In this document: one piece after another, positions 1 through 35,997 of the stretch
Numbering within the stretch: the first letter of the stretch is position 1
How the letters are laid out: the number at the start of each line of letters is the position of its first letter
NCBI GenBank assembly: GCA_020073585.1
Contig: JAIQEV010000031.1
Span: 1-42,212 of the forward strand
Direction of reading: 5' to 3'
Origin: Terriglobia bacterium
GTDB lineage: Bacteria; Acidobacteriota; Terriglobia; Acidiferrales; UBA7541
Length of the DNA stretch: 42,212 nt
Notes under the pieces: model-generated
The model's database searches: none
The model's input: only the letters and a program-made list of their open reading frames with translations
Told to the model about the DNA's origin: nothing
Program-made: the position numbers and the translations under genes

Positions 1-2
1 CC

Positions 3-176
3 TACCATCTGTATCGTCCCGATGATTTCGAGGGTACTGCCCCGTCGGGAGATTACACGCGCCCAAACCTTTTCGCAGCGGGCGTGACCGACTACAAAAT
101 AGACCCGTTCGTCGGCAGCGGGTCGTTCGTCAACAGCGAGTGGGTCAACTACACCCGCGACTGGCCAAACAGTTGA
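3..176 (+). CDS. C-terminal end of an unrecognised protein, cut by the left edge
   Basis: An open frame enters from the left edge without a start and ends at TGA 174-176, giving 57 residues that begin YHLYRPDDF and end NYTRDWPNS. It is rich in aromatic residues, Gly, Ser and Asp, which reads like the tail of a secreted or beta-rich protein, but I do not recognise a family. It does not belong to the gene that follows: the next frame overlaps it and lacks its own N-terminus, so this short piece is probably from other DNA joined here. The coding call rests only on the open frame and plausible composition. Confidence 0.4.
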   Translation, partial: YHLYRPDDFEGTAPSGDYTRPNLFAAGVTDYKIDPFVGSGSFVNSEWVNYTRDWPNS

Positions 177-982
177 ACCCTCAGCCCGTCAAAGAGCTTG
201 TCTCCTCAGGGGTGAAGGAGGCGAAAAGCTGCGCTGAAGCGGCCAAAGGAGTGAAAGTGGTCATTACCATGCTCCCGGCGGACGACGAGGTCAAGACCGT
301 GTGCCTGGGCGCCGGAGGGGTCCTCGAAGGGGCGAAGCCCGGAACGGTACTCATTGACATGAGTTCCATCGCCCCCCACACTTCGAAGCAGGTGGACGCC
401 GAAGCGCAGAAGAAGGGGGTAAAGTTTCTCGATGCTCCGGTTTCGGGCGGAACCACGGGCGCGGAAAAAGCGACGCTCACCATCATGGTGGGAGGGGACA
501 AAGCCTTGCTGGATGAACACATGGAAATCCTCCAGGCCATGGGAAAAACCATCTACCACGTGGGCGATGTGGGGATGGGCGAGACGGTCAAGATGGTTAA
601 TCAGATGTTGGTGGGAATTAATTTGGCAGGGATTGTCGAGGCCTTGGTGATGGGGACCAAGTTGGGAGTAGCCCCGGAGGTTCTCTACAAAATCATCCGG
701 GCCAGCTCCGGCAATTCCTTCATGCTTGACAGCCGGGTCCCCAATTTTATTTTTAGCGGCAACTTTACCCAGCCCGGGTTTGCGGTTGACCTTTTGCGAA
801 AAGATCTGGGGTTGGCCCTGGAGAGCGCCAAAGTCTCCAAGATCCCCCTCTTCATGACCGCCCAGGCCTACCAGTATTTCACCCGGGCCACGGCGGAAGG
901 ACTGGGAAAGAAGGACATGTCCGTTGTCATCGAGCTGCTGGAGAAAACCGCAGGGGTGCAGGTTAGAGGGAAAGCAGAGTAG
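140..982 (+). CDS. 3-hydroxyisobutyrate dehydrogenase family protein, 5'-truncated
   Basis: NAD(P)-dependent beta-hydroxyacid dehydrogenase family (3-hydroxyisobutyrate dehydrogenase, tartronate semialdehyde reductase and relatives). The substrate loop DAPVSGGTTGAEKATLTIMVGGD and the catalytic-lysine motif KMVNQ are present, and the C-terminal helical domain runs to the end. The GxGxxG Rossmann motif and about 30 residues that normally begin the family are absent. Homology seems to start at NPQPVKELVSSG, near base 177, and the dozen residues before it come from the overlapping foreign frame. The GTG at 140 is therefore unlikely to be a natural start. The TAG stop (980-982) lies inside a palindromic repeat. 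The TRAP transporter genes follow on the same strand. The family call is firm, the exact substrate is not known, and the gene as it stands could not bind NAD normally. Confidence 0.85.
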   Translation: MGQLHPRLAKQLNPQPVKELVSSGVKEAKSCAEAAKGVKVVITMLPADDEVKTVCLGAGGVLEGAKPGTVLIDMSSIAPHTSKQVDAEAQKKGVKFLDAPVSGGTTGAEKATLTIMVGGDKALLDEHMEILQAMGKTIYHVGDVGMGETVKMVNQMLVGINLAGIVEALVMGTKLGVAPEVLYKIIRASSGNSFMLDSRVPNFIFSGNFTQPGFAVDLLRKDLGLALESAKVSKIPLFMTAQAYQYFTRATAEGLGKKDMSVVIELLEKTAGVQVRGKAE

Positions 983-1006
983 GGGCGATTCATGAATCGC
1001 CCCTAC
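979..1006. repeat. Palindromic GTAGGGGC-type repeat, copy 1
   Basis: A perfect 28-base palindrome with outer ends GTAGGGGC and GCCCCTAC and centre GATTCATGAATC. It supplies the stop codon of the dehydrogenase gene. Other copies lie at 4243-4282, 6745-6772, 8282-8310, 8335-8362 and, degenerate, 9553-9577. It could fold as a hairpin in RNA and act as a terminator or message-stabilising end. Confidence 0.85.
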
Positions 1007-1126
1007 AGGGAGGCCCGGAAGGGGATTCGGTTCAGCAGGTCCGGGTAAATCAGCAATAAACTGAATGTTCAGCTTTTCTGTCCAATTGTCTGTGTTTTCA
1101 AATATCATCACAAAAAGGAGGAGGCA

Positions 1127-2128
1127 ATGAATAAGAAGATGTTGGTGAAAGGAATGGTTTTGACTCTTTGTTTCGCTCTGATCCCCTTTCTGGCGGGCAG
1201 CGCCCATGCCCAGAAGCCCATCGAGCTGGCCTTTGCCCTGCACACCGCGCCGGGCGGACCGGACCACGCGGCGGTGCAGAAGTTCAAGGAGATGGTGGAA
1301 AGCCAGAGCAAAAACCGGCTTAAGGTGAACCTTTTCCCCGGCGCCCAGCTGGGAGGAGAGAGGGATAACCTCGAACAGTTGAAGCAGGGCGAAGTGGCTC
1401 TCACCCAGTCGGGAGGCCTCGACATCTCCCTCCTGGCGCCCGAGTATGGCGCTCTTTCGACTCCCTATGTGTTTCCCACCATTGAATCGGTTTTCAAGGC
1501 CTGGGAAGGGCCCATCGGAAAAGGGATCAAGGATGCCTTCCTAACCAAAGGCAAGGTTCATGTGCTCGGCTATCAGCGGCGGGGCGCCCGCATGTTGACC
1601 GCCAAAAAGGAAATTAAGACTCCCGACGCATTAAAAGGTCTGAAACTCAGGCTGCCCGAAATCCCCGACTGGGTGGCGGTTTGGAAAGAATTGGGCGCTT
1701 TGCCGACCGTGGTGGCCTGGCCGGAAGTCTTCGGGGCGCTTCAAACCGGCGTCGTGGATGGCCAGGAAAACCCCCTTTACCTCATCTACACCACAAAACT
1801 GTATGAGGTTCAGAGCCATGTCATGCTTACCTCCCACGTCCACAACTGTTTCGACTGGCTCATGAGCGATAAGGTCCTCTCCTCCCTTCCCAAAGACCTG
1901 AAGGACCTCGTCCTGAAATCGGCCAAGGAGGCTTCCGCTTACGGAGATAAGCTTACGATGGAGCAGGAGGAGGATTACAAGAAGAAACTGGCGGAAAAGG
2001 GAATGAAAGTGGTTCAGGTGGATCTAAAAGCCTTTATGGCCAAAACGAAACCGGCCGTCGAGAAGATTCGCCCGAAGTGGGCCAAGGGCGTTTATGAAGA
2101 AGTCCAAAAGCTGACTGCAGCAAAATAA
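1127..2128 (+). CDS. dctP: TRAP transporter solute-binding protein (DctP family)
   Basis: Periplasmic substrate-binding subunit of a tripartite ATP-independent periplasmic transporter, which captures a carboxylate or related acid for the membrane subunits. The 333-residue product starts with a clear signal peptide (MNKKMLVKGMVLTLCFALIPFLAGSAHA, cut after AHA). It continues with the family's N-terminal strand (ELAFALHTAPGGPDHAAVQKF), the NLFPGAQLGGERDNLEQLKQGEVALT segment and the VVAWPEVFGALQTGVVDGQENP segment typical of DctP. The start is set by a strong AAAAAGGAGGAGG ribosome site a few bases upstream. It precedes the fused membrane subunit by about 215 bases and probably shares its transcript. 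The substrate cannot be read from the sequence; the neighbours suggest an organic acid. Confidence 0.95.
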   Translation: MNKKMLVKGMVLTLCFALIPFLAGSAHAQKPIELAFALHTAPGGPDHAAVQKFKEMVESQSKNRLKVNLFPGAQLGGERDNLEQLKQGEVALTQSGGLDISLLAPEYGALSTPYVFPTIESVFKAWEGPIGKGIKDAFLTKGKVHVLGYQRRGARMLTAKKEIKTPDALKGLKLRLPEIPDWVAVWKELGALPTVVAWPEVFGALQTGVVDGQENPLYLIYTTKLYEVQSHVMLTSHVHNCFDWLMSDKVLSSLPKDLKDLVLKSAKEASAYGDKLTMEQEEDYKKKLAEKGMKVVQVDLKAFMAKTKPAVEKIRPKWAKGVYEEVQKLTAAK

Positions 2129-2219
2129 TCCCTCTTTCCAGAGGGACTGTGCCGCAATGATATTTAGTCATTGCGAAGCCGCCAGGGGCGGTACATGGCA
2201 GGAGAGCCTGGCAATCTCA

Positions 2220-2266
2220 CCCCCTCCCCACCCTCCCCCATCGAGGGGGAGGGAGAGGGTGGGGGG
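2220..2266. repeat. C-rich/G-rich inverted repeat between dctP and dctQM
   Basis: A run of C-rich blocks (CCCCTCCCCACCCTCCCCC) is followed, after a short ATCGA turn, by the near-complementary G-rich run ending at about 2266. It would form a long GC hairpin in the 215-base gap between the binding protein and the permease. It may lower readthrough so that the binding protein is made in excess, but that role is inference. Confidence 0.7.
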
Positions 2267-2343
2267 AATGCGGCCGAGGAGGGGCGACTTCTGTATTCCC
2301 ATCCAACCCGAATCGTCGGGAAAAGGTTTGAGGAGACGACTGG

Positions 2344-4179
2344 ATGACCGGCAACGTGAATCAGCGACTTGCTTCTTTCGAGAAAAAGTTCATGGGCGCA
2401 CTGGACGGGGTCAACCTCTTCCTGTTTGTCCTTCTGATCATTCTGGCCTCCTTACAGGTTAGCTTCCGATATCTCTTCTTTGCTCCCCTACCCTGGACCG
2501 AAGAGCTTTCCCGCTTTTTTCTGGTGTGGGTTGCTTTCCTGGGAGCCGCCAGCGTCACCCGCCGGAAGTTGCATATCCTGGTGGACTACCTGGTTTCCAA
2601 AATGCCCCTGCGGGCCAACCGGATCATCGGGAAAATCCTCTATCTCCTGGGCATCGCCTTCATGGCATCCGTCCTATGGGGCTCGATAATAATGATGGAG
2701 GATGCCTGGCCGGTTCACCTGGGGTCGATTCCCTGGCTCAGTGTTTCTTTCCTCTATCTCGGGGCGGTCATCGGCAGCGCCATCATGCTCTTCTACCTGA
2801 TCCTTCACCTGAGGCGCGGAGCTTCTTTTCTTCCCCCCGAGCTCGAAACGGCTCCCCCGGAAAACGCCGGGCAGAGGGGGGAGGTGATCCTGACCTGGTT
2901 ATTCCTGATCGTCCTTCTCCTGCTCATTTTTGTGGGTCTTCCCATTGCCCTCTCCATGGGTGCAACCACCCTGATCGCCGTGGCGTTCAAACGGGGCATC
3001 GGCGACATCCCCCACACCATGATGGCCCAGCGCATGGTCTACGGGGTTAATTCCTTCCCGTTGCTGGCCATTCCTTTTTTCCTCCTCGTCGGACGGCTGA
3101 TGAATATCGGAGGGATCACGGACCGGATCTATACCTTCTGCAGCGTGCTCATCGGACATGTGAGGGGCGGCCTGGCTCACGTCAATATCATGGGCAGCAT
3201 GATCTTTGCCGGCATGACCGGTTCGGCGGTATCCGATGCGGTGGGGCTGGGGCAGATGGAAATCAAGGCCATGACCGACCAGGGGTACGACCGGAAATTC
3301 GCCGCTGCCACCACCGCGGCCTCGGCCACCATCGGGCCGATTATTCCTCCGAGCATTCCCATGGTTCTCTACGGTGTGCTGGGAAACGTATCGGTCGGCG
3401 CTCTCTTCATCGGGGGAATCATTCCTGGAGTCCTGATGGGCCTCTTCATGATGGCCGTGGTGGCCACCGTCGCCAAGAGGAGGGGATTCCCCCTGCAAAA
3501 GCGCGCCACTCTCGGGCAGATCATCCGGGCCATCTATCGGGCCGTATTTCCTCTCCTCTCTCCGGTCATTCTCATCGGGGGCATCTGGGGGGGAATCTTC
3601 ACTCCCACCGAGGCCGGTGTCGTGGCCGTTTTATACTCCATCCTCCTCGGCCTGGTCATCTACCGGGAGATGAACTTCCGCGGATTATTACGAATGTTGA
3701 AGGAAGCCCTGGACGACACCTCCATCCTCCTTTTTATTATCGCCGCGGCTTCCGTGTATGGCTGGTTCATTGCCCGGTATCAGATCTCTACCAGCATTGT
3801 GGAACAAATGCTCGCCATCTCCAAGGACCCTATGGTCTTCCTGTTCATCGTAAATCTCCTGCTTCTGGTCGTGGGATGCATCATGGAGAGCCTGGCGGCC
3901 ATCAATATCCTGACCCCGATCCTGCTGCCCGTGGCTGCCAGTCTGGGTATCGATCCGGTTCATTTCGGGCTGGTCATGGTGCTGAACCTCATGATCGGGT
4001 TAATCACCCCGCCGGTGGGCATGGTCCTGTATGCCGTGCAGAGGGTGGCCGGAATTAACTTTGATGATCTGGTCAAGGCCGTGGCGATTTACTATATCCC
4101 CTTGATGCTGGTCCTTTTCATGATTACCGTATTTCCCCCGCTCGTAACCTGGTTGCCTTCAACGATCCTGACCAAGTAA
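2344..4179 (+). CDS. dctM: TRAP transporter fused small and large permease subunits (DctQM)
   Basis: Inner-membrane part of the TRAP transporter, driven by an ion gradient. In this 611-residue protein, residues about 25-160 are the four-helix DctQ domain (VSFRYLFFAPLPWTEELSRFFLVWVAFLGAA is its signature region). Residues about 180-605 are the twelve-helix DctM domain, with FVGLPIALSMG, GSMIFAGMTGSAVSDAVGLGQMEIKAM and IIPPSIPMVLYG. Separate Q and M genes are commoner, but natural QM fusions such as SiaQM are known. The start ATG follows a GAGGAG site about ten bases upstream. It pairs with the binding-protein gene upstream, and the AOR-family gene follows after about 200 bases. Confidence 0.95.
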   Translation: MTGNVNQRLASFEKKFMGALDGVNLFLFVLLIILASLQVSFRYLFFAPLPWTEELSRFFLVWVAFLGAASVTRRKLHILVDYLVSKMPLRANRIIGKILYLLGIAFMASVLWGSIIMMEDAWPVHLGSIPWLSVSFLYLGAVIGSAIMLFYLILHLRRGASFLPPELETAPPENAGQRGEVILTWLFLIVLLLLIFVGLPIALSMGATTLIAVAFKRGIGDIPHTMMAQRMVYGVNSFPLLAIPFFLLVGRLMNIGGITDRIYTFCSVLIGHVRGGLAHVNIMGSMIFAGMTGSAVSDAVGLGQMEIKAMTDQGYDRKFAAATTAASATIGPIIPPSIPMVLYGVLGNVSVGALFIGGIIPGVLMGLFMMAVVATVAKRRGFPLQKRATLGQIIRAIYRAVFPLLSPVILIGGIWGGIFTPTEAGVVAVLYSILLGLVIYREMNFRGLLRMLKEALDDTSILLFIIAAASVYGWFIARYQISTSIVEQMLAISKDPMVFLFIVNLLLLVVGCIMESLAAINILTPILLPVAASLGIDPVHFGLVMVLNLMIGLITPPVGMVLYAVQRVAGINFDDLVKAVAIYYIPLMLVLFMITVFPPLVTWLPSTILTK

Positions 4180-4242
4180 AGGAGGGGGTTCTTGACAAAA
4201 ATGGGTGGTGAATTTTAGACTGGATTTGTAAGCTTTTCCGAA

Positions 4243-4282
4243 GTAGGGGCACGATGTCCCGCGAAACGCGGGATGCCCCTGC
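4243..4282. repeat. Palindromic GTAGGGGC-type repeat, copy 2 (extended inner stem)
   Basis: Outer arms GTAGGGGCA and TGCCCCTGC enclose a second stem, TCCCGCG-AAA-CGCGGGA. The ends match the other copies while the interior differs, as in a family of REP-like elements. It lies in the 207-base gap between the permease and AOR genes and could end the transporter transcript. Confidence 0.8.
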
Positions 4283-4386
4283 GGCTTCGAGTAAGGATAT
4301 TTCTTTGTTGCCGCCCTGTTATTATTTTTTTTGCTGATAAGCGCTAAAGGTTCCAAAAGAAATAACTATAAAATAGGAGGTCAGCC

Positions 4387-6249
4387 ATGGCTGATGCGAA
4401 AATACCCGGATATGTGGGAAAGATGCTACGGGTCGATCTGGGCGGCAAGAAGATATCGGAAGAAAAACTGGACGAGCAGACCCTGAAGAAATGGGTGGGC
4501 GGAGCCGGATTGGCCGCCAAGTACCTCTACGACGAGGTGCCCCCGGGCGTGGAATGGAATGATCCCCGGAACCGCCTCATCTGGACAACCGGGCCGCTGG
4601 CGGGAAGCGGAGTCTCAGGGGCCGCCACCTTCAACGTGACCACCAAGGGCCCCATGACCAACCAGGCCGGCTGTTCCCAGGCTAATGGATATTTCGGGGC
4701 CTACCTGAAATTCTCCGGGTTTGACGGAATTATCTTCCAAGGAGCTTCTCCCAAGCTGGTTTACCTGGTGGTCAAGGAAGGGAAAGCGGAAATCCGCGAC
4801 GCAACCCATCTGGCCGGGAAAGATGTCTGGGAAGTGGAAGATCAAATCCGGAAAGAACTGGGGGTCAAAGAGCGCGAGGTCAGCGTTTATGCCATCGGTC
4901 CGGCGGGAGAAAACAAGGTTTACTACGCCACGATCACCGGGGACCGCGGCCACGTGGTGGCTCACAACGGAATGGGAGCGGTGATGGGGTCGAAGAACCT
5001 GAAGGCGGTCGTGGCCTTCAGCGGAAAGAGAAACTTCGAGGTCCACAATGCCGAATTACTGAAGGAAAAGAATAACGCCCTCTTTGAGTTCGCCAAGACC
5101 TTCGGGACCATTTACCAGTGGGGCTCCGGAGGAGGCTTCTCCACTCTTTCCGCCAACGGCGCCCTGCCGGTGAAAAATTACACCACCAACCTCTATCCCG
5201 AGCATGAGAAGATGAACGGGCAGTACATGAGGACCCATTACAAGATGCGTCCGGTTCCCTGCTATCAGTGTCGCATCGCCCATGTAAAAGAAGTAGAGGT
5301 CACCGAAGGGCCCTACAAGGGATTCGTGGGAGAGGAACCGGAGTATGAGCTTCTGGCCGCCTGGGGCCCGCAGATCGGCAACACCGAATTGGGCGCCGTG
5401 GTCATGCTGACCAAGGAAGTGGACAAGCTGGGAATGGATTGCAACGAAGGGTCCTGGGTCGTGGGCTGGGCCATGGAATGTTATGAAAAAGGCGTATTCA
5501 CCAAGAAGGAAACCGACGGTCTCGACCTGAGTTGGGGTAACGCCGAAGCCGCGAAGGAACTTTTGAACCGCATCGCGCGGCGACAGGGGTATATCGGAAA
5601 CCTCCTGGCCGACGGGGTCATGCGGGCCTCCAAGAAGGTCGGCGGGCCGGCTGCGGACTGGGCCATTTACGGATGTAAGGGATCCGCGCCCCGCGGCCAT
5701 GACCACCGCGGGACGACCCGCTGGTATGAACTCCTGGACACCTGCGTGACCAACACCAGCTCCCTGGACGCCACCTGGGGCGGAGTCCATCCCAAGCTGG
5801 TAGACCAGGAGGAGGCCACGGATCATTTCTCCCACGAGCAGGTCTCCACGATCAACGCCAAGTTCAGCGGGATCCGGCTCTTCGACGACTGCCTGGGGAC
5901 CTGCCGGTTCGCATCCCCCCACCCCAAGCTCCAGCTGGAGTGTTTCAACGCGGTCACCGGGTGGAACTGGAAGCTCGAAGACGGGTTCACGGTGGGAAGG
6001 CGAATCACGAACCTGCTGAGGGTTTTTAACTTCCGCCACGGGGCGAAGATCGAGGACGAGAGGCCTTCCAAGCGGTACGGCTCCATCCCCGTGGACGGCC
6101 CGGCCAAGGGCAGAAACATCATGGAGAAGTGGCCCATGATGGTGGGAAACTACTACCGCCTGATGGGTTGGGACCCCAAGACGGGCAAGCCTCTGCCGGA
6201 GACGCTGGAAAAGCTGGGGTTGAAGGAGATCATTAAAGACCTAAAATAA
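4387..6249 (+). CDS. Aldehyde:ferredoxin oxidoreductase family tungsten/molybdenum enzyme
   Basis: Member of the AOR family, whose enzymes hold a tungstopterin (or molybdopterin) and a [4Fe-4S] cluster and oxidise aldehydes or carry out other two-electron reactions with ferredoxin. At 620 residues it has the family length. The N-terminal domain (GYVGKMLRVDLGGKKISEEKL, WTTGPLAGSGVSGAATFNVTTKGP) and the helical C-terminal domains are present. The cluster motif reads C292-x2-C295-x3-H299 instead of the usual C-x2-C-x3-C, with the distant ligand probably C506 in DDCLGTCRF. The start ATG follows a perfect AGGAGG. A MoaD-like gene and a ferredoxin gene follow, as is common for AOR operons. The substrate is not evident; relatives include BamB-type benzoyl-CoA reductase subunits, so a role other than aldehyde oxidation is possible. 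Confidence 0.92.
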   Translation: MADAKIPGYVGKMLRVDLGGKKISEEKLDEQTLKKWVGGAGLAAKYLYDEVPPGVEWNDPRNRLIWTTGPLAGSGVSGAATFNVTTKGPMTNQAGCSQANGYFGAYLKFSGFDGIIFQGASPKLVYLVVKEGKAEIRDATHLAGKDVWEVEDQIRKELGVKEREVSVYAIGPAGENKVYYATITGDRGHVVAHNGMGAVMGSKNLKAVVAFSGKRNFEVHNAELLKEKNNALFEFAKTFGTIYQWGSGGGFSTLSANGALPVKNYTTNLYPEHEKMNGQYMRTHYKMRPVPCYQCRIAHVKEVEVTEGPYKGFVGEEPEYELLAAWGPQIGNTELGAVVMLTKEVDKLGMDCNEGSWVVGWAMECYEKGVFTKKETDGLDLSWGNAEAAKELLNRIARRQGYIGNLLADGVMRASKKVGGPAADWAIYGCKGSAPRGHDHRGTTRWYELLDTCVTNTSSLDATWGGVHPKLVDQEEATDHFSHEQVSTINAKFSGIRLFDDCLGTCRFASPHPKLQLECFNAVTGWNWKLEDGFTVGRRITNLLRVFNFRHGAKIEDERPSKRYGSIPVDGPAKGRNIMEKWPMMVGNYYRLMGWDPKTGKPLPETLEKLGLKEIIKDLK

Positions 6250-6254
6250 AGGAG

Positions 6255-6396
6255 AAATTCCAAATTCCAAGCACCAAATCCCAAACAAGTTTCAAATAGC
6301 AATTAACAATGAGCGAAACATGTGCCCTCGGGAAAGTTTGGGATTTTGAATTTAGAGGTTGGGATTTATTTGGTGCTTGGCATTTGGAATTTGGGA
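6255..6396. repeat. Long AT-rich inverted repeat upstream of the MoaD-like gene
   Basis: The left arm (about 6258-6297) contains CCAAATTCCAAGCACCAAAT. The right arm (about 6339-6395) contains its near-complement, ATTTGGTGCTTGGCATTTGG. The arms are about 40-55 bases with a loop of about 45 bases. The element fills the gap between the AOR and MoaD-like genes and ends right at the likely start codon. A second element of the same style lies at 9479-9635. Confidence 0.8.
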
Positions 6397-6407
6397 TGTC
6401 AAGGGAC

Positions 6408-6725
6408 ATGCGAATCCGCATTGAATTATGGATGTGGCTGGGAGAAAACCCGGGAGGCGGCTTCCAAGCTCTCTCGGGAATGCGATCTTTCCGGGAAATG
6501 GATGTGGAGGAGGGGCTCACCGTCATCCAGCTCCTGGACCGCCTGGCCGCTCAATCCCCGGTGATCGAAGAAAAGATCTTCGACCGAAAAAACCGGAAAC
6601 TGCTTCCCAATCTCAGCGTGGTTGTGACCCACGAAGGATTGGTGGTCAGCCCCTTCAACATCGATGAAAGTGAAATGAAGGACGGGTATAAAATAACAAT
6701 TTTGCCTCTCTATGTGGGGGGGTAA
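6408..6725 (+). CDS. MoaD/ThiS-like sulfur-carrier protein
   Basis: Small beta-grasp protein of the MoaD/ThiS family, which carries sulfur as a C-terminal thiocarboxylate for pterin-dithiolene synthesis. The C-terminus VGG has the required di-glycine, and the segment VEEGLTVIQLLDRLAAQSP matches the family's first helix. From ATG 6408 the product is 105 residues, longer than canonical MoaD (about 80), with an extra loop near GENPGGGFQ. ATG 6396, four codons upstream, is an alternative start; translation from farther upstream would have to read through the inverted repeat. It sits between the AOR-like enzyme and a ferredoxin, so it is likely dedicated to cofactor assembly for that enzyme. Confidence 0.85.
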   Translation: MRIRIELWMWLGENPGGGFQALSGMRSFREMDVEEGLTVIQLLDRLAAQSPVIEEKIFDRKNRKLLPNLSVVVTHEGLVVSPFNIDESEMKDGYKITILPLYVGG

Positions 6726-6744
6726 AGAAAGTGTCTGAAGAATC

Positions 6745-6772
6745 TTAGGGGGGATTCATGAATCGCCCCTAC
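6745..6772. repeat. Palindromic GTAGGGGC-type repeat, copy 3
   Basis: TTAGGGGGGATTCA joined to TGAATCGCCCCTAC is copy 1 with small changes in the left arm. It lies between the MoaD-like gene and the two-cluster ferredoxin. Confidence 0.8.
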
Positions 6773-6822
6773 GGTTGGTGGATACATGAGCGACTATAGA
6801 CACCAAAAAAGAGAGGAAAGAA

Positions 6823-7557
6823 ATGAAAATTGACCTGGAAAAATGCATCGGATGTAAGAAGTGCGCCGACTATTGCCCGGTAGGCGCCATCTCCTACATT
6901 CAGGATGAAAAGAACCCCAAGAAGAAAAAGGGCGCCATTGACCTGGAAGAGTGCGTGGAATGCGGCGTGTGCTTCCGCGCCGGGGTCTGCAAGCCCGAGG
7001 CCATTTTCCGGCAGGAAATCGGCTGGCCGCGGAGTGTCCGCCTGGCTTTCAGCGACCCCATGATCGAGCACAAGAACACCGGCGTCCCGGGAAGGGGCAC
7101 GGAGGAGATGAAGACCAACGAAGTCACGGGACGGTTCAAAAGAGGGACTTACGGGATGGCTGTTGAAGTGGGCCGTCCGGGTGTGGCCGGCAGGCTGGAA
7201 GACCTGGAGAAGATCGCCATTTCCCTGGCCAAAATCGGAGTGGAATTCGAGCCCAAAAACCCGGTGACTTTTTTGTTCGAGGATGTAAAAACCGGAAAGC
7301 TGAAGCCCGAGGTAGGCAAGGAAAAAGTTCTTTCGGCCATCATCGAATTCGTGGTCAAGCCCGAGCAGATAAGGCCAGTCCTTCAGGCTTTGAAAGATAT
7401 TTCCCCGAAGATCGACAGCGTCTTCTCCCTGGACCTGATCAGCTTCCCCGAGGAGTCGGAAAAAGCCCCGGCGCTGAAGGTGGTCAAAGAGATGGGCTTC
7501 CCGGTCTATCCCAACGGCAAAGTAAACCTGGGACTGGGAAAAGTATTAAACAAATAA
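6823..7557 (+). CDS. Two-cluster ferredoxin with an unknown C-terminal domain
   Basis: Likely electron-transfer partner of the AOR-like enzyme. The N-terminal 60 residues carry two [4Fe-4S] motifs: C8-x2-C11-x2-C14-x3-C18-P, and C44-x2-C47-x2-C50-x5-C56-K-P. The second has a two-residue insertion before the last cysteine. Residues about 80-244 form a separate domain without cysteines (GRPGVAGRLEDLEKIAISLAKIGVEF through VNLGLGKVLNK) that I do not recognise; its alternating strands and helices suggest a compact alpha/beta or ACT-like fold. The start is set by a GAGAGGAAAG site. It follows the MoaD-like gene by about 100 bases and precedes an unknown gene with which it probably shares a transcript. 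Confidence 0.85.
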   Translation: MKIDLEKCIGCKKCADYCPVGAISYIQDEKNPKKKKGAIDLEECVECGVCFRAGVCKPEAIFRQEIGWPRSVRLAFSDPMIEHKNTGVPGRGTEEMKTNEVTGRFKRGTYGMAVEVGRPGVAGRLEDLEKIAISLAKIGVEFEPKNPVTFLFEDVKTGKLKPEVGKEKVLSAIIEFVVKPEQIRPVLQALKDISPKIDSVFSLDLISFPEESEKAPALKVVKEMGFPVYPNGKVNLGLGKVLNK

Positions 7558-7574
7558 TGATGGGAGAAATTTCT

Positions 7575-7652
7575 TTTTAACTTTAGGCACTCTAGCGCAC
7601 TTTAGGCATTGTCGGCACTTGCTCACATTTAAGTACACTTAAGCGCACTTCC
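7575..7652 (+). repeat. Degenerate short tandem repeat (GCACTTTAGG-type)
   Basis: About seven imperfect units of 9-11 bases run through this gap: TTTAGGCAC, TCTAGCGCAC, TTTAGGCAT, TGTCGGCAC, TTGCTCACA, TTTAAGTACAC and TTAAGCGCAC. The array stops just before the AAAGGAG ribosome site of the next gene, so it lies in its leader. No function is evident. Confidence 0.7.
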
Positions 7653-7664
7653 AAAGGAGATATC

Positions 7665-8285
7665 ATGACTCATACTTTACATCGTACCGGCGACTTGCAG
7701 AGTATAAAAGAAGATTTCCCCATGCTGACCCACGTGGCCAGGGGTTTCAACGACCAAGGGGCCAGCGTCCGGCTGAAAAAAATTGCCCAGACCATGACCA
7801 AATATACGGACCTCCATTTCGGGGACTGCAAGGTGGGTAATAAATACCTGATGGACTCCGCGGAAATTATGGACAAGCTCACCGTAGGCTGCCAGGTGGT
7901 ATTCAAAGATAAAGAAAGCCTCATCGGCTGCATGAAGGAATTAAAGCAGATCGACCAGGGTATTTCCATCGTCGTATCGGGGATATTCGAGGAGGTTTTC
8001 GAGTGCTGTGATAAGGCCGGCCTTAAACCGCCGCTGATCGAGTTTGCCCTCGGAGTTCACGGCAATACCAAGAGGCTCTGGCCCCCGGAAATTCTGGAAT
8101 TCGTGACCATGTGCGGCCACGGGCTGGTCTCCGGCCGCCTGGTGAAAAAGATGGTCGAGGATATAAAGAAGAACAAGATCACCGCGGAAAAGGCGGCCAT
8201 TGAACTGGCCAAGCCCTGCCTCTGCGGAATCTTCAACCCCGACCGGGCCGCCAAATTATTAAAGAGAATGACCGGCCAGTTGTAG
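7665..8285 (+). CDS. Unrecognised 206-residue protein in the AOR cluster
   Basis: The gene has a strong AAAGGAGATATC site before its ATG and codon use like its neighbours, so it is real, but I do not recognise the family. The product is soluble, with no signal peptide or membrane segment. It has scattered cysteines (GDCKVGNK, VGCQVV, LIGCMKE, FECCDKAG, TMCGHGL) and a C-terminal KPCLCGIFNPDRAAKLL motif that could bind metal. The middle (QGISIVVSGIFEEVFECCDKAGLKPPLIEFALGVHG) looks like an alpha/beta core. The TAG stop (8283-8285) lies inside a palindromic repeat. Its place between ferredoxin and PdxA2-like genes suggests a part in the same redox or catabolic unit, but no activity can be assigned. 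Confidence 0.8.
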   Translation: MTHTLHRTGDLQSIKEDFPMLTHVARGFNDQGASVRLKKIAQTMTKYTDLHFGDCKVGNKYLMDSAEIMDKLTVGCQVVFKDKESLIGCMKELKQIDQGISIVVSGIFEEVFECCDKAGLKPPLIEFALGVHGNTKRLWPPEILEFVTMCGHGLVSGRLVKKMVEDIKKNKITAEKAAIELAKPCLCGIFNPDRAAKLLKRMTGQL

Positions 8286-8310
8286 GGGCGGGTTTGAAAC
8301 CCGCCCCTAC
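8282..8310. repeat. Palindromic GTAGGGGC-type repeat, copy 4
   Basis: The arms GTAGGGGCGGGTTT and AAACCCGCCCCTAC are complementary around one central base. Its second to fourth bases supply the TAG stop of the preceding gene. Copy 5 lies 25 bases downstream. Confidence 0.85.
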
Positions 8311-8334
8311 AGGTGAGAACATAGCTATTCCCCC

Positions 8335-8362
8335 GTAGGGGCAATTCATGAATTGCCCCTGC
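8335..8362. repeat. Palindromic GTAGGGGC-type repeat, copy 5
   Basis: The arms GTAGGGGCAATTCA and TGAATTGCCCCTGC are complementary except at one outer pair. It lies just upstream of the PdxA2-like gene. A TTG inside it (8353) is in frame with that gene, but the true start is farther down. Confidence 0.85.
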
Positions 8363-8397
8363 ATATTTTCCCGCTTTTAAATAGGAGAAAAATTATT

Positions 8398-9414
8398 TTG
8401 GACTCCCTTCAAAAACCACGTCCCAAAGTCGCTGTGATCATGGGGGATGCCACGGGCATCGGCCCGGAAATCGTGGCCAAGTCCCTGAGCACTGAGGAGA
8501 CCCGCCGGATCTGTATGCCCGCTGTCATCGGAGATTCCCGGGTGATGGCCGAGGCCATCAAGCTCACCAAGGTCCCCTTGAAGATCGTCCCCCGAAAAAA
8601 CTGGAAAGAGGTGACCGGTGAGCCCGGCCTGGTGGAGATGTTTGACCTGGCCAACCTCGACCCGAAAGATTACAAAATGGGCGAGGTCAATGCAAAAGCC
8701 GGGAAGGCTTGCCTCCAGTACCTGGATTTCGCTATCGCCCAGGCCATGGACGGCCAGGCCGACGCCGTCGTTTTCGCTCCCCTGAACAAGCTGGCCATGA
8801 GCCTGGGCGGGTCCGACTTTAAAGATGAGCACGGCTATTTTGCTAGACACACCAAGTCGGAACTTTACGGAGAGATCAACGCCCTGGACCCCCTCTTTAC
8901 CTCCCGGGTCACGTCCCATATCGGGTTTCGGGACATTGCCAACCGTCTCACCCCAGAAAGGATTGTAAAGGCCGTCAAACTCCTCCATCAAACCATGCGC
9001 CGGGCCGGCATCCCCAGCCCCAAGATCGGCGTTGCCGCACTCAACCCCCACGGAGGCGAGAAAGGCCTTTTTGGCCCGGAAGAAGATACGATCATCAAGC
9101 CTGCGGTGGAGATGGCCCGGGCTGAGGGGATGGATGTGGTCGGGCCCTACCCCGCGGATACGATCTTTGTGCGCGCCCGCCGGGGTGAATTTTCCGGGGT
9201 CGTGACCATGTATCACGACCAGGGCCAGATCGCCACCAAGCTTCTGGGATTCGATCGCGGCGTGACCGTGGCGGGGGGACATCCGATCGTCGTCACCACC
9301 CCGGCTCACGGGACCGCCCATGATATCGCCGGCAAAGGAATCGCGGATATCGGAGCCTTCCAGGCCGCCCTGCGGATTGCCGTGCGAATGGCCCAACGTT
9401 CTAAGAAAAGCTGA
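8398..9414 (+). CDS. PdxA/PdxA2-like 4-phospho-hydroxyacid dehydrogenase
   Basis: NAD- and metal-dependent dehydrogenase of the PdxA family. Canonical PdxA oxidises 4-hydroxythreonine 4-phosphate for vitamin B6; the PdxA2 branch oxidises phosphorylated D-threonate or D-erythronate in catabolic clusters. The opening VIMGDATGIGPEIVAKSL is the family signature. The metal-site histidines are in DEHGYFARHT, NPHGGEKGLFGPEE and MYHDQGQIATKL, and the tail motif VAGGHPIVVTTPAHGTAHDIAGKG is intact. I place the start at TTG 8398 because AGGAGA lies nine bases upstream; the in-frame TTG at 8353 lies inside a repeat and has no such site. Catabolic neighbours favour a PdxA2-type role over B6 synthesis, but no sugar-acid kinase gene is seen here. 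Confidence 0.88.
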   Translation: MDSLQKPRPKVAVIMGDATGIGPEIVAKSLSTEETRRICMPAVIGDSRVMAEAIKLTKVPLKIVPRKNWKEVTGEPGLVEMFDLANLDPKDYKMGEVNAKAGKACLQYLDFAIAQAMDGQADAVVFAPLNKLAMSLGGSDFKDEHGYFARHTKSELYGEINALDPLFTSRVTSHIGFRDIANRLTPERIVKAVKLLHQTMRRAGIPSPKIGVAALNPHGGEKGLFGPEEDTIIKPAVEMARAEGMDVVGPYPADTIFVRARRGEFSGVVTMYHDQGQIATKLLGFDRGVTVAGGHPIVVTTPAHGTAHDIAGKGIADIGAFQAALRIAVRMAQRSKKS

Positions 9415-9431
9415 CGATGATTTAGCTTGCT

Positions 9432-9448
9432 TTGTCCCAAGGGGACAA
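9432..9448 (+). terminator. Weak terminator-like hairpin after the PdxA2-like gene
   Basis: TTGTCCC and GGGACAA pair around a three-base loop, 17 bases after the stop codon. The following sequence is A/T-rich without a clear T run. Confidence 0.4.
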
Positions 9449-9478
9449 TTAGAATTTATTTATAAGCAGTCACTATCA

Positions 9479-9635
9479 AATCCGAAACACGAAATTCGAA
9501 ATCCGAAATAAATTCGAATTTCCTAAATCCCAAAATTCCGTACGGGATTTTTGTAGGGGTGCACTGCTGTGCGCCCTGTTTTGAGATTCGGGTTTAGGTA
9601 TTTTTTCGGATTTCGATATTCGAATTTCGGATTTA
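9479..9635. repeat. Long AT-rich inverted repeat upstream of the last ferredoxin
   Basis: The left arm (about 9479-9534) includes CGAAATCCGAAATAAATTCG. The right arm (about 9586-9635) includes TTCGGATTTCGATATTCG, which is near-complementary. The loop holds a degenerate GTAGGGGT-type palindrome (9553-9577), as if one element sat inside the other. It is built like the element at 6255-6396. Confidence 0.8.
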
Positions 9636-9654
9636 TTTTTGTGTAGGGGGAGTC

Positions 9655-10173
9655 ATGAAGGTCATCGGAGTTCATCTGGATCGCTGCACCGGATGCAAAA
9701 CCTGCGAACTGTACTGCGCGGCTGAAAGGGGGAGCGACGGGAAAACCCTCTTAAAAGCCGTTCAGGAGTCCCCGACTCCAAGGCCTCGCGTCCGCGTGGA
9801 AGGAAGCAATCAGCTGCCCATCGCCATGCACTGCCGCCACTGCCTCAACGCCCCCTGCGTGGATGCCTGCCTGACCGGAGCTTTGACCCGCGAGCCCAAG
9901 TCCAACCTGGTGGTCGTCCAGGAGGACCGCTGCATCGCCTGCTGGACCTGCACCATGTTCTGCCCCTACGGGGTGATATATCCCTGGCCAGACCGAAAAA
10001 TCGCCCTGAAATGCGACCGGTGCGCCTTCATGGACAACCCGGTTTGCGTGGAGGTCTGCCCCTGCAAGGCGCTGGAACTGGTGGATGTGGCCCCCTTGTC
10101 CGGCTCACGAGTCACGTCTCTCAAGGGAGGAGCGCCGCGCAACGCTCAGGAAAGCGTTGCGCGGCGCCGTTGA
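9655..10173 (+). CDS. Four-cluster polyferredoxin (HycB/DmsB-like), C-terminus probably replaced
   Basis: Electron-transfer subunit with four [4Fe-4S] cysteine groups: C-TG-C-KT-C-ELY-C near the start, CRHCLNAPCVDAC, CIACWTCTMFC, and CDRCAFMDNPVCVEVCP. This is the pattern of the iron-sulfur subunits of DmsABC-type oxidoreductases and of CO dehydrogenase-linked ferredoxins. The start has a GGGGGAG site. After LELVDV (about base 10,090) the sequence turns into Ser/Gly/Arg-rich residues (SGSRVTSLKGGAPRNAQESVARRR) that include half of a GC-rich hairpin. These do not look like a ferredoxin end. I infer that the natural C-terminus was lost at the junction to the acidobacterial segment. It probably served the AOR-like enzyme or a partner gene now missing. 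Confidence 0.88.
   Translation: MKVIGVHLDRCTGCKTCELYCAAERGSDGKTLLKAVQESPTPRPRVRVEGSNQLPIAMHCRHCLNAPCVDACLTGALTREPKSNLVVVQEDRCIACWTCTMFCPYGVIYPWPDRKIALKCDRCAFMDNPVCVEVCPCKALELVDVAPLSGSRVTSLKGGAPRNAQESVARRR
10131..10170. terminator. Strong GC hairpin at the junction of the two backgrounds
   Basis: GCGCCGCGCAACGCT and AGCGTTGCGCGGCGC form a 15-base perfect stem with a six-base loop. It lies inside the odd tail of the ferredoxin frame and has the base composition of the right-hand segment. It may be a terminator from that genome; no T run follows on either strand. Confidence 0.6.
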
Positions 10174-10609
10174 GGATTCTGGCAGGCTGGTTGTGAATTA
10201 CTGTAGTGGTCGTGGCAGGAGCCTGCTGCGGCGAAGACGCGCGGCGTTCCCCCCAGCCGGTCGTTTGGCTGCGGAGAAGTTTTTCTCGAAATAGAGCGTT
10301 GCTTCGATTGCCGTGTCCTTGCCGCCGCTCAGCTTTACTTTCTAGAATCGGTTCCCGCGAACATTTCCTTCGGGAATCGATTCCCCGATGCCCATTCCTT
10401 GTGCACCGCGCATGCCACTCCGCGCGCGAGTAAACCGTGTGCTGGCATGGGGATAGGGATGCTCGCTGGGAGCGCGCTGCATTAAGTCGGGAATTTGTGT
10501 CGGAGTGGCACAAAACGTATGGTCAAATCGGCCTGAATTCTCGGGCAAAAACTTTTCCTGGGCCTGTGGAAATCTTCCGGCGATGGATCGCGGCCCTGCG
10601 CGGCCGGGA
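10174..10609. other. 436-base gap without a supported gene
   Basis: It lies downstream of the NtrC-type regulator, which reads toward it. I see no convincing coding frame. It contains the perfect palindrome GGGAATCGATTCCC (10372-10385) and, 27 bases upstream, a related half-site, GAATCGGTTCCCG, so a protein-binding site is possible. No gene start lies near them, so their target is unclear. Confidence 0.5.
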
Positions 10610-12040
10610 CTAGGCGGCGGCGCCCCCGGATTTGGCGGCGTTGTCCTTGGCGTCGCGCTTGAGGTAGCGGTACAGGCTGGTGCGCCCGATGCCCAGGATC
10701 TGCGCCGCGCGCAGGCGGTTGCCCTGGCACATGTCCAGAACCCGCTGGATGTGCAGGCGGCGCACTTCGTCCAGGGAGAGCGGGCGCCAGGCATCGCGGT
10801 CGGCGGGCTGCGGTTCGGGCTTCTGCAGATGCTCGGGAAAATCGCCGATGTCCACGAACTGTCCGGTGGCGGTGATGCAGGCGCTGGAGATCACGTTTTC
10901 CAGTTCGCGTACGTTGCCCGGCCAGGCATATTGCAGCAGCACGGTCTGCGCCCGGCGGGTCAGCCCGGCGATCTGCTTGCCGTAGGCCTCGTTATATTTT
11001 TTCAGGAAAAACTGGATCAGCAAGGGAATGTCCTCGAGCCGCGCGCTCAGCGGGGGAATGCGAATCTGGATGGAACTCAGCCGGTAGTAGAGGTCCTCGC
11101 GGAAACGCCCGGCGAGCACTTCGGCGCGCAGGTCGCTGTTGGTGGCGGCGATGAGCCGCACGTTCACCTGGCGCACTTCCGGCGAGCCGATGCGCTGGAT
11201 CTCGCGGTTCTGGATCACCCGCAGCAGCTTGGCCTGCATGGCCAGGGAGGTCTCGCCGACCTCGTCGAGAAAGACCGTGCCGCCGTTGGCGTATTCGAAC
11301 AGCCCCGGGCGGGTGTCCGTGGCGCCCGTGAAGGCTCCGCGCAAGTGGCCGAAGAGCTGGCTTTCCAGCAGCGTGTCCACCATGGCCGAGCAGTTGCATA
11401 TCGCCAGGCGCTGCTGCGCCACCGGGCTCAACTGGTGGATGGCCCGGGCCACGAGCTCCTTGCCCGTTCCCGTGGCGCCGATCAGCAGCACGTTGGTGTA
11501 ATGCCGCGCCACTTTGCGCGCCAGGTCGAAGACCTCCAGCATCGCCGGGCTCTTGCCCACGATGCCGTGGAACTCGTGGTCTTTCAGGAGCTGCTCTTCG
11601 AGCTGGTGCACCCGGCGCCGCTGGTCGTAGAGCACGGCCACTTCGTCCAGCGTGCGGCGCAGCCGCCCGTAGTCGATGGGCTTGGGCAGAAAGTCGTAGG
11701 CCCCCCGGCGGATGGCATCCACCGCCGATTCCAGCGAGTACCCGCCGGTGGTCAGCACCACGTGCACCCCCGGGTCGATGCCCAGGGCGTGATCCAGAAA
11801 GGCGAAGCCGTCCATGGCCGGCATCTGCACGTCGGCCAGAATGAAGCGGCAGCGCCCGTGGCGGATCAGCTCCAGGGCTTCCTGGGGATCGGAAGTGGTG
11901 ACGGGATCGTATCCGCATTGCGTGACCAGCGCGGCGAGGGCATCCAGCTGCGCCGGATCGTCATCCAGGATGCACGGAATGAGTGCCGTTGTGGAGCCGC
12001 TGGGTACCGCAACTTTTTGCACGGCGTTGGCCATAGCCAT
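10610..12040 (-). CDS. NtrC-family sigma-54-dependent response regulator
   Basis: Two-component regulator that activates sigma-54 promoters when phosphorylated. The 476 residues hold three parts. The receiver domain (residues about 20-140) has LDDD, phospho-acceptor Asp in LADVQMPAMDG, LTTGG and LPKP. The AAA+ domain has Walker A GATGTGKE, sigma-54 contact loop GAFTGA and FLDEVGE. The C-terminal Fis-type helix-turn-helix is RAAQILGIGRTSLYRYLKR. ATG 12040 is only four bases from AAGGA; ATG 12034, two codons on, has better spacing and may be the true start. No histidine kinase gene is adjacent, so it is an orphan regulator here and its signal is unknown. Confidence 0.95.
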   Translation of the reverse strand: MAMANAVQKVAVPSGSTTALIPCILDDDPAQLDALAALVTQCGYDPVTTSDPQEALELIRHGRCRFILADVQMPAMDGFAFLDHALGIDPGVHVVLTTGGYSLESAVDAIRRGAYDFLPKPIDYGRLRRTLDEVAVLYDQRRRVHQLEEQLLKDHEFHGIVGKSPAMLEVFDLARKVARHYTNVLLIGATGTGKELVARAIHQLSPVAQQRLAICNCSAMVDTLLESQLFGHLRGAFTGATDTRPGLFEYANGGTVFLDEVGETSLAMQAKLLRVIQNREIQRIGSPEVRQVNVRLIAATNSDLRAEVLAGRFREDLYYRLSSIQIRIPPLSARLEDIPLLIQFFLKKYNEAYGKQIAGLTRRAQTVLLQYAWPGNVRELENVISSACITATGQFVDIGDFPEHLQKPEPQPADRDAWRPLSLDEVRRLHIQRVLDMCQGNRLRAAQILGIGRTSLYRYLKRDAKDNAAKSGGAAA

Positions 12041-13748: not shown

Positions 13749-13795
13749 GTTGACCGCTTCGCGGTCACCCAGGGAGTTGACCGCTTCGCGGTCAC
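13749..13795. repeat. Two copies of a 20-base palindromic repeat near tRNA genes
   Basis: GTTGACCGCTTCGCGGTCAC occurs at 13749-13768 and again at 13776-13795, a 27-base period. Each copy can form the hairpin TGACCGC-TTC-GCGGTCA. Inverted relatives lie in triplicate at 35926-35997, next to another tRNA-Ser, and one degenerate copy lies inside the sigma-factor gene near 32319-32336. Confidence 0.85.
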
Positions 13796-13875
13796 GCATA
13801 CAGAGAATCTCCAGCCGCAGGCGATTTCCCGCCCGCCTCGAGTTCTGCTAATCTTGTACGGTTCGTCTGGTCAGC

Positions 13876-35838: not shown

Positions 35839-35925
35839 GCCGCGCGGTCAACTTTCTAATCGTAGCAGACCCTTCCGTTTTTCAGCAATGCGCGCTGCGC
35901 CAAAGACTGCCTGGTCTTTTCCGGT

Positions 35926-35997
35926 GTGACCGCGAAGCGGTCAACTCACGTGTGACCGCAAAGCGGTCAACTCAGGTGTGATTGCGAAGCGGTCAAC
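35926..35997. repeat. Three tandem copies of the 20-base palindromic repeat
   Basis: GTGACCGCGAAGCGGTCAAC (35926-35945), GTGACCGCAAAGCGGTCAAC (35952-35971) and GTGATTGCGAAGCGGTCAAC (35978-35997) recur with an exact 26-base period. They are the inverse of the pair at 13749-13795 and again lie close to a tRNA-Ser gene. Confidence 0.9.

Follow-up and report, generated by a model that had tools for sequence, protein, structure and literature searches.

The window analysed here is the whole contig JAIQEV010000031.1 (C97 in our numbering), 42,212 nucleotides of an assembly deposited for a Terriglobia bacterium (GCA_020073585.1). Its first part carries nine co-directional open reading frames (ORFs) at positions 140-10173, which an initial annotation made from the letters alone had described as a possible new catabolic unit; all nine frames are borne out by the list of ORFs and by family scans. 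The stretch from about 174 to about 10,088 is a Desulfobacterota-type piece which is misjoined to the unrelated genome of the host. It holds an operon of the order HIBADH-dctP-dctQM-aor-moaD-fd1-unk-pdxA, for which a role in anaerobic organic-acid catabolism is proposed; that this reading is correct as a whole, including the way of working set out below, we regard as about evenly balanced.

All nine genes lie on the forward strand. The first one (174..982) is indeed of the HIBADH type, with both NAD_binding_2 and NAD_binding_11 matched, but the gene is not intact. Its 5′ end is missing: the ORF 140-982 matches NAD_binding_2 from profile position 30 onward only, the listed GTG start at 140 is an artefact, and the complete genes of two related genomes (G175 and G110) encode 302 amino acids (aa). 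A TRAP set follows in which the DctP, DctQ and DctM domains are all matched. It consists of the solute-binding protein DctP (1127..2128; PF03480, 245 bits), to which sialate, C4-dicarboxylate and uncharacterised TRAP receptors come closest among solved proteins, and of a fused DctQ-DctM permease (2344..4179; PF04290 and PF06808) that is encoded by separate genes in G175. Next come an AOR-family enzyme (4387..6249), a MoaD/SAMP-like protein ending in Gly-Gly (6408..6725), a first ferredoxin (Fd1, 6823..7557) with two 4Fe-4S motifs and a conserved C-terminal region, a 206-aa protein of an undescribed family (7665..8285), a PdxA-like dehydrogenase of a kinase-less clade (8398..9414) and a second, HydN/CooF-like ferredoxin (Fd2, 9655..10088) which is recognised by its HydN match and gene context and is cut by a junction, about 28 C-terminal residues of the ORF 9655-10173 being read from host DNA. 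The families of the dehydrogenase, DctP, the fused permease, AOR, the two 4Fe-4S proteins and PdxA were confirmed by the scans. The MoaD-like assignment stays below threshold (23.7 bits to SAMP1, cut-off 60), as do the profile matches of the 105-aa homologue in G175. The starts at 6408 and at 8398 (TTG) are estimates, since the longest-ORF starts of MoaD and PdxA (6309 and 8353) probably lie too far upstream. Two long intergenic inverted repeats with arms of 25-34 nucleotides about 90 nucleotides apart are found at 6255-6392 and 9478-9634, the first of which contains the listed start of the MoaD ORF. Counts of promoter-like sites (7 against 4.0, standard deviation 1.7, in shuffles) and of terminator-like sites (13 against 13.7) are not informative.

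The chimeric nature of the contig is shown by comparison of contigs, not by coverage. The GC content in 1-kb steps is 0.51-0.60 through base 10000 and exceeds 0.60 in 30 of the 32 later steps. At the left junction the alignable DNA of four genomes (G110, G275, G175 and G228) begins at 173/174, and at the right junction the matches to source-type DNA stop at 10085-10090. A genome of the same genus as the host (G009) aligns to the window at 86% from 10106 onward and not before. The G009 DNA just upstream of this aligned part matches another contig of the window's own assembly (C81, 12351 bases) at 91-92%, and the final 55 bases of C81 are an exact copy of window 10088..10142. An exact overlap of such length is typical of neighbouring contigs from a k-mer graph assembler. 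The true host path therefore runs from C81 into C97, and C81 is the native neighbour of the host part.

Composition separates the two parts in the same way. The tetranucleotide distance of the segment (174..10088; like the overlap given without strand) is 0.41-0.53 to three host stretches and 0.47 to G009, against 0.11-0.15 to the loci L134, L135 and L067 and 0.23 to L073, host stretches differing from each other by 0.15-0.19. The palindrome GGCGATTCATGAATCGCC (at most one mismatch) has two sites in the 4.03-Mb assembly, both inside the segment, and a third copy is weaker. A REP-like intergenic palindrome, GGGGCGATTCATGAATCGCCCC, has three copies at 982-1003, 6748-6769 and 8338-8359, all in the foreign segment, and its core occurs once in G110 (L134). 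On the host side short repeats of the GTTGACCGCTTCGCGGTCACCCA type lie near tRNA genes at 13749-13798 and 35894-35997 and are also present in C81 and G009. Bases 1..173 (forward strand, open in frame 3 for 57 aa) fit neither neighbour, and comparison with 35 further genomes of the host genus and with Pfam brought up nothing similar; a search of window 1-10700 against Rfam at the gathering threshold found nothing. The 206-aa protein was not found in any of 24 other genomes of this genus, and among 40 relatives searched its sole homologue is a distant copy (31%) in G040, a genome of the host's class.

A collection scan with the 206-aa protein led to three named records, two of them titled Deltaproteobacteria and one an uncultured proteobacterium, and 395 genomes of the phylum of the first record were surveyed, with identity thresholds of at least 53% for AOR and at least 70% for PdxA. 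In G175, an independent genome, a GntR regulator is followed by HIBADH-DctP-DctQ-DctM-AOR-MoaD-Fd1-206-aa protein-PdxA in the order of the window segment, with identities of 82% for HIBADH, 79% for DctP, 65% for DctQ and DctM, 87% for AOR, 62% for MoaD, 86% for Fd1, 82% for the 206-aa protein and 74% for PdxA. The set is rearranged in G275, where HIBADH (84%), PdxA (74%), Fd1 (49%) and the 206-aa protein (48%) are consecutive and AOR (57%) and MoaD (29%) divergent. Parts of it exist in G203 (AOR-MoaD-PdxA), in G110 (HIBADH-DctP-DctQ-DctM-AOR-MoaD, then a second TRAP set, an iron-type alcohol dehydrogenase and Fd1, 93%) and in G252, in which PdxA (87%), Fd2 (89%) and a CODH-like gene are consecutive and AOR (57-59%) is divergent. 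AORs of this group occur at no fewer than 18 places in at least 13 of the 395 genomes, and a MoaD-like gene follows at 12 of the 18 places listed; PdxA above its threshold is present in four genomes and in all four adjoins such an AOR. The idea of a conserved catabolic unit thus holds within one phylum. The initial annotation would have abandoned it if the genes were never found together elsewhere; the same order in G175 and the rearranged set in G275 answer this, and the G175 order also rules out a chance co-location of unrelated genes. The operon is real, conserved but variable.

Fd2 had been counted as a member of the unit, which is not borne out. Its family has 14 loci besides the window. 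At 13 of them it is directly beside a CODH/prismane-like gene, and a FAD/NAD oxidoreductase is present at all 14. Two further Fd2-CODH-like pairs are found in G252 and G146. Membership in the operon was rejected on this adjacency and on the order PdxA-Fd2-CODH-like in G252, and Fd2 is probably the first gene of the next, CODH-like gene set, truncated by the junction; its likeness to CooF is presumed from gene context. Small CODH/prismane-like proteins of about 493-506 aa are encoded at L106:2984-4465, L076:801-2291 and L135:8611-10131, beside FAD/NAD oxidoreductase, Fd2 and Fd1-206-aa genes, and in two of the three the NCBIfam or Pfam match is restricted to the N-terminal cluster region.

The AOR-family enzyme is matched over its whole length by PF02730 (AFOR_N, 227 bits) and PF01314 (AFOR_C, 294 bits). 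Its identity to the AOR of P. furiosus is 34%. PEYE is conserved, and of the four Cys positions of the cluster three are kept; the roles of these residues we assume here. The third cluster position (CxxCxxxC...C) is His in the window protein and in six relatives, and Cys in the AORs of other loci with Fd1 and the 206-aa protein (L019, L021 and L078). To judge from these residues the window protein falls in a variant subclade of the AOR family and is not a typical AOR.

HIBADH-type enzymes oxidise a hydroxymethyl group next to a carboxylate. The full homologue in G175 scores below the equivalog cut-offs (TIGR01692, 266 against 291.6; PRK11559, 284 against 397), and its best solved match is 2-hydroxymethylglutarate dehydrogenase (PDB 3cky, 268 bits), with tartronate semialdehyde reductase at 231. 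Two sister sets combine Fd1 and the 206-aa protein with a hydroxymethyltransferase-like gene and HIBADH. Together with the AOR and the kinase-less PdxA these relations suggest a branched or hydroxymethyl carboxylic acid as substrate.

The PdxA-like dehydrogenase matches PF04166 with 311 bits, retains the three metal His and scores below the curated equivalog cut-offs (TIGR00557, 277.9 against 290.35; PRK03743, 281.6 against 470). Its residues were compared with those of E. coli PdxA and of D-threonate 4-phosphate dehydrogenase. In the aligned motifs of the window protein and of four orthologues the three His and a Lys are conserved, but DE.. or GEL. stands in place of GHTE, GVT in place of GVN, and V, I or M in place of the Arg of IRTS. 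GHTE, N and R are positions which we take to contact the phosphate in PdxA and PdxA2. These residues are lost here but retained by the paralogues in G252 and G275 that stand beside a DUF1537-type kinase, which makes an unphosphorylated substrate likely for the window clade. The label PdxA2-like is weakened by the same replacements. The lack of a sugar-acid kinase, already remarked from the sequence, was confirmed: neither the segment nor the G175 operon, as far as read, contains a DUF1537-type kinase, and a changed PdxA active site is the best explanation for this. In a tree of 14 sequences three PdxA-like genes on alphaproteobacterial plasmids fall into a single clade with the window group (support 1.0). 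They adjoin TTT transporters, in one case also a tartrate dehydrogenase, and have the replacements in common with that group. By the residue switch kinase-less PdxA enzymes can be recognised simply from their sequence; several of them carry vitamin B6 gene names in plasmid records.

The 206-aa protein had been called an unknown, and the scans agree. Neither Pfam nor NCBIfam nor the PDB gave a convincing match. An alignment (A4) comprised 49 sequences, 48 of the 62 alignable members and that of L119. Weak scattered Pfam matches (best SHOCT-like, E 0.0006; 5 of 49 members at E 0.5) and PDB profile matches (XPA zinc-finger protein, E 0.011, then calmodulins) were dismissed as chance. A search of viral contigs found no relatives. 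Alignment searches matched at least 28 of the 395 genomes, those of all three named records included. Fd1 lies directly upstream on the same strand for 61 of 65 copies; of the remaining four, L084 and L116 are at contig ends, and L114 and L117 are broken or divergent with Fd1 close by. Conversely, the protein follows 61 of 65 Fd1 copies (exceptions L088 at a contig end, L114, L117 and L134), a count biased by the choice of loci for this protein or for the operon. When four genomes, all known carriers, were searched with Fd1 itself, the 206-aa protein was present at 12 of 12 places. Ten residues are invariant among the 62 alignable copies (R7, G9, C150, G151, H152, C185, C187, G188, N191 and R194), three of the 65 being excluded for a length outside 190-245 aa. 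The protein is predicted to be an Fe-S or metal protein.

The neighbourhoods of the pair are diverse. Of 57 loci of the 206-aa protein, 20 contain TTT genes, 19 FNOR, 18 Fd2-like, 17 CODH-like, 9 GntR, 8 LIV-type ABC, 7 AOR, 5 HIBADH and 4 TRAP genes, and MoaD and PdxA are present at 3 each, numbers which depend on the seed proteins and have no background control. Further neighbours are thiamine pyrophosphate enzymes, class III CoA-transferases, aldehyde dehydrogenase and ketopantoate hydroxymethyltransferase-like genes. The distant copy in the host's class (L118, G040:C70) also consists of Fd1 and the 206-aa protein and lies beside TRAP genes, so the pair also exists outside the source phylum. 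The pair is probably a general redox module. We further propose, tentatively and with less than even confidence, that Fd1 and the 206-aa protein form an undescribed two-protein Fe-S module (CGH...CxC) which anaerobic bacteria add to many organic-acid pathways as a shared redox unit or enzyme and which here, with a new AOR subclade of His-ligated cluster and a PdxA for unphosphorylated acids, would make up a new hydroxymethyl-type acid route. One identified substrate could annotate dozens of such gene sets, tied as they are to uptake systems.

Several observations weigh against the operon reading. The full gene order is seen in just one other genome, G175. Among the 18 AOR places listed, HIBADH lies within 10 kb at five, two of which share the same G175 gene, and Fd1 and PdxA (at least 70%) at four each, several contigs ending early; four places have neither HIBADH nor Fd1, PdxA or MoaD, two of them at contig edges. 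The Fd1 of G110, the one most like that of the window, stands behind the second TRAP set and the alcohol dehydrogenase, with no 206-aa protein in the remaining 482 bases. Separate transcripts would also fit the gaps of 58-240 bases and the palindromes and repeats in them. Finally, an AlphaFold2 model of the 206-aa protein from four sequences (mean pLDDT 59.5) is too poor for a conclusion, and a Foldseek search of this low-confidence model against the PDB gave no match at E ≤0.001. The stretch after Fd1 in G110 (L134:15533-16014) presumably resembles the start of a group II intron; an Rfam search of this partial stretch gave no match.

A genuine island acquired by the host through horizontal transfer, in place of an assembly error, is very improbable. 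The deposited contig does join the segment to host DNA and a genome of the host's class holds the distant pair, but the exact C81 overlap leaves the host's own path intact, the left flank is not host-like across the 35 genus members, the composition equals that of the source phylum, and Fd2 and HIBADH are both cut by the junctions; transfer was rejected on the C81 continuation and the 55-base identity. The binned genome seems to own an anaerobic operon which it does not have. Also improbable, though less so, is a PdxA2 function of this PdxA on an acid phosphorylated by a DUF1537-type kinase that is encoded elsewhere in the genome. In G252 and G275 the contig with the kinase-less PdxA also holds a pair of such a kinase with a PdxA (L135:195-2469 and L121:9834-11964). 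However, each kinase adjoins its own PdxA paralogue with GHTE, N and R, which the operon PdxA and its four orthologues have lost.

For the 206-aa protein two other roles come into question. Together with Fd1 it might be a substrate-specific enzyme, e.g. an Fe-S lyase or oxidoreductase, and not a general redox unit. The paralogues (at least seven in G054) occupy different uptake and catabolic sets, as fits such enzymes, and the Cys/His and LHR-x-G residues vary little or not at all; yet the protein resembles no enzyme family and has no confident fold, and we hold this to be unlikely. Somewhat more doubtful still is a maturation or insertion factor for metal enzymes such as AOR and the CODH-like proteins. 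Its motif is like a metal site and CODH-like and AOR genes stand at 17 and 7 of the 57 loci, but many loci hold neither, and the partner is a ferredoxin and not a set of cofactor genes.

The preferred reading remains that of a catabolic operon which most likely serves to take up and oxidise, without oxygen, a carboxylic acid of the hydroxy or hydroxymethyl type. The TRAP system would import a small hydroxycarboxylate, and the HIBADH-type enzyme would use NAD+ to oxidise the hydroxymethyl group beside the carboxylate to an aldehyde. The AOR, presumably a tungsten enzyme matured by its own MoaD-like sulfur carrier, may turn the pathway aldehyde into the acid and hand low-potential electrons to Fd1. 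The PdxA-like enzyme, dependent on a metal and NAD+, might then oxidatively decarboxylate an unphosphorylated beta-hydroxyacid, although the order of these steps could differ. The 206-aa protein and Fd1 would act as a redox unit that is also employed beside CODH-like and other catabolic sets. In a limited library, no paper was listed that names the present set of genes, or AOR together with a PdxA lacking its kinase, in its title or the opening of its abstract.

Among known systems the AOR operon aorABCDE of Aromatoleum aromaticum, as described in excerpts of its report (PMC6365974), shares the AOR-type large subunit and the MoaD-like genes. It has two of the latter, aorD and aorE, so a dedicated carrier is already known. 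The window unit differs in having no FAD subunit, in Fd1 taking the place of the four-cluster AorA, in the His for the third cluster Cys and in the lower identity to the P. furiosus AOR (34% against 50% in a table of that report). 2-Hydroxymethylglutarate dehydrogenase is the top solved match of the HIBADH homologue, but no nicotinate-fermentation genes were recognised in the window unit. PdxA2 is described as taking part in organic-acid catabolism (PMC9997740, in excerpt), and its acid-sugar pathways with a DUF1537 kinase resemble the present case in the PdxA family, with 36-39% identity to kinase-linked PdxA2-type proteins; here the kinase is missing and GHTE, N and R are replaced.

TphB, the terephthalate dihydrodiol dehydrogenase, is a PdxA-family enzyme for an unphosphorylated substrate. 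The gene of Rhodococcus DK176, assigned by gene context and called PdxA in its record, has also lost the residues at the phosphate positions, but it is 31% identical to the window PdxA, stands on a separate branch and has other replacements. Closer are the PdxA-like genes by TTT transporters on plasmids of Pacificitalea, Sinorhizobium and Roseomonas, at 42-48% identity. Among their listed genes (the PLSDB gene tables are incomplete) there is no AOR, Fd1 or 206-aa protein, and the Sinorhizobium plasmid has a dihydroxyacetone-kinase-type gene absent from the window unit. Like the window unit, the three plasmids list no DUF1537-type kinase, and they share its clade and the DE../GVT/(I,L,F) replacements.

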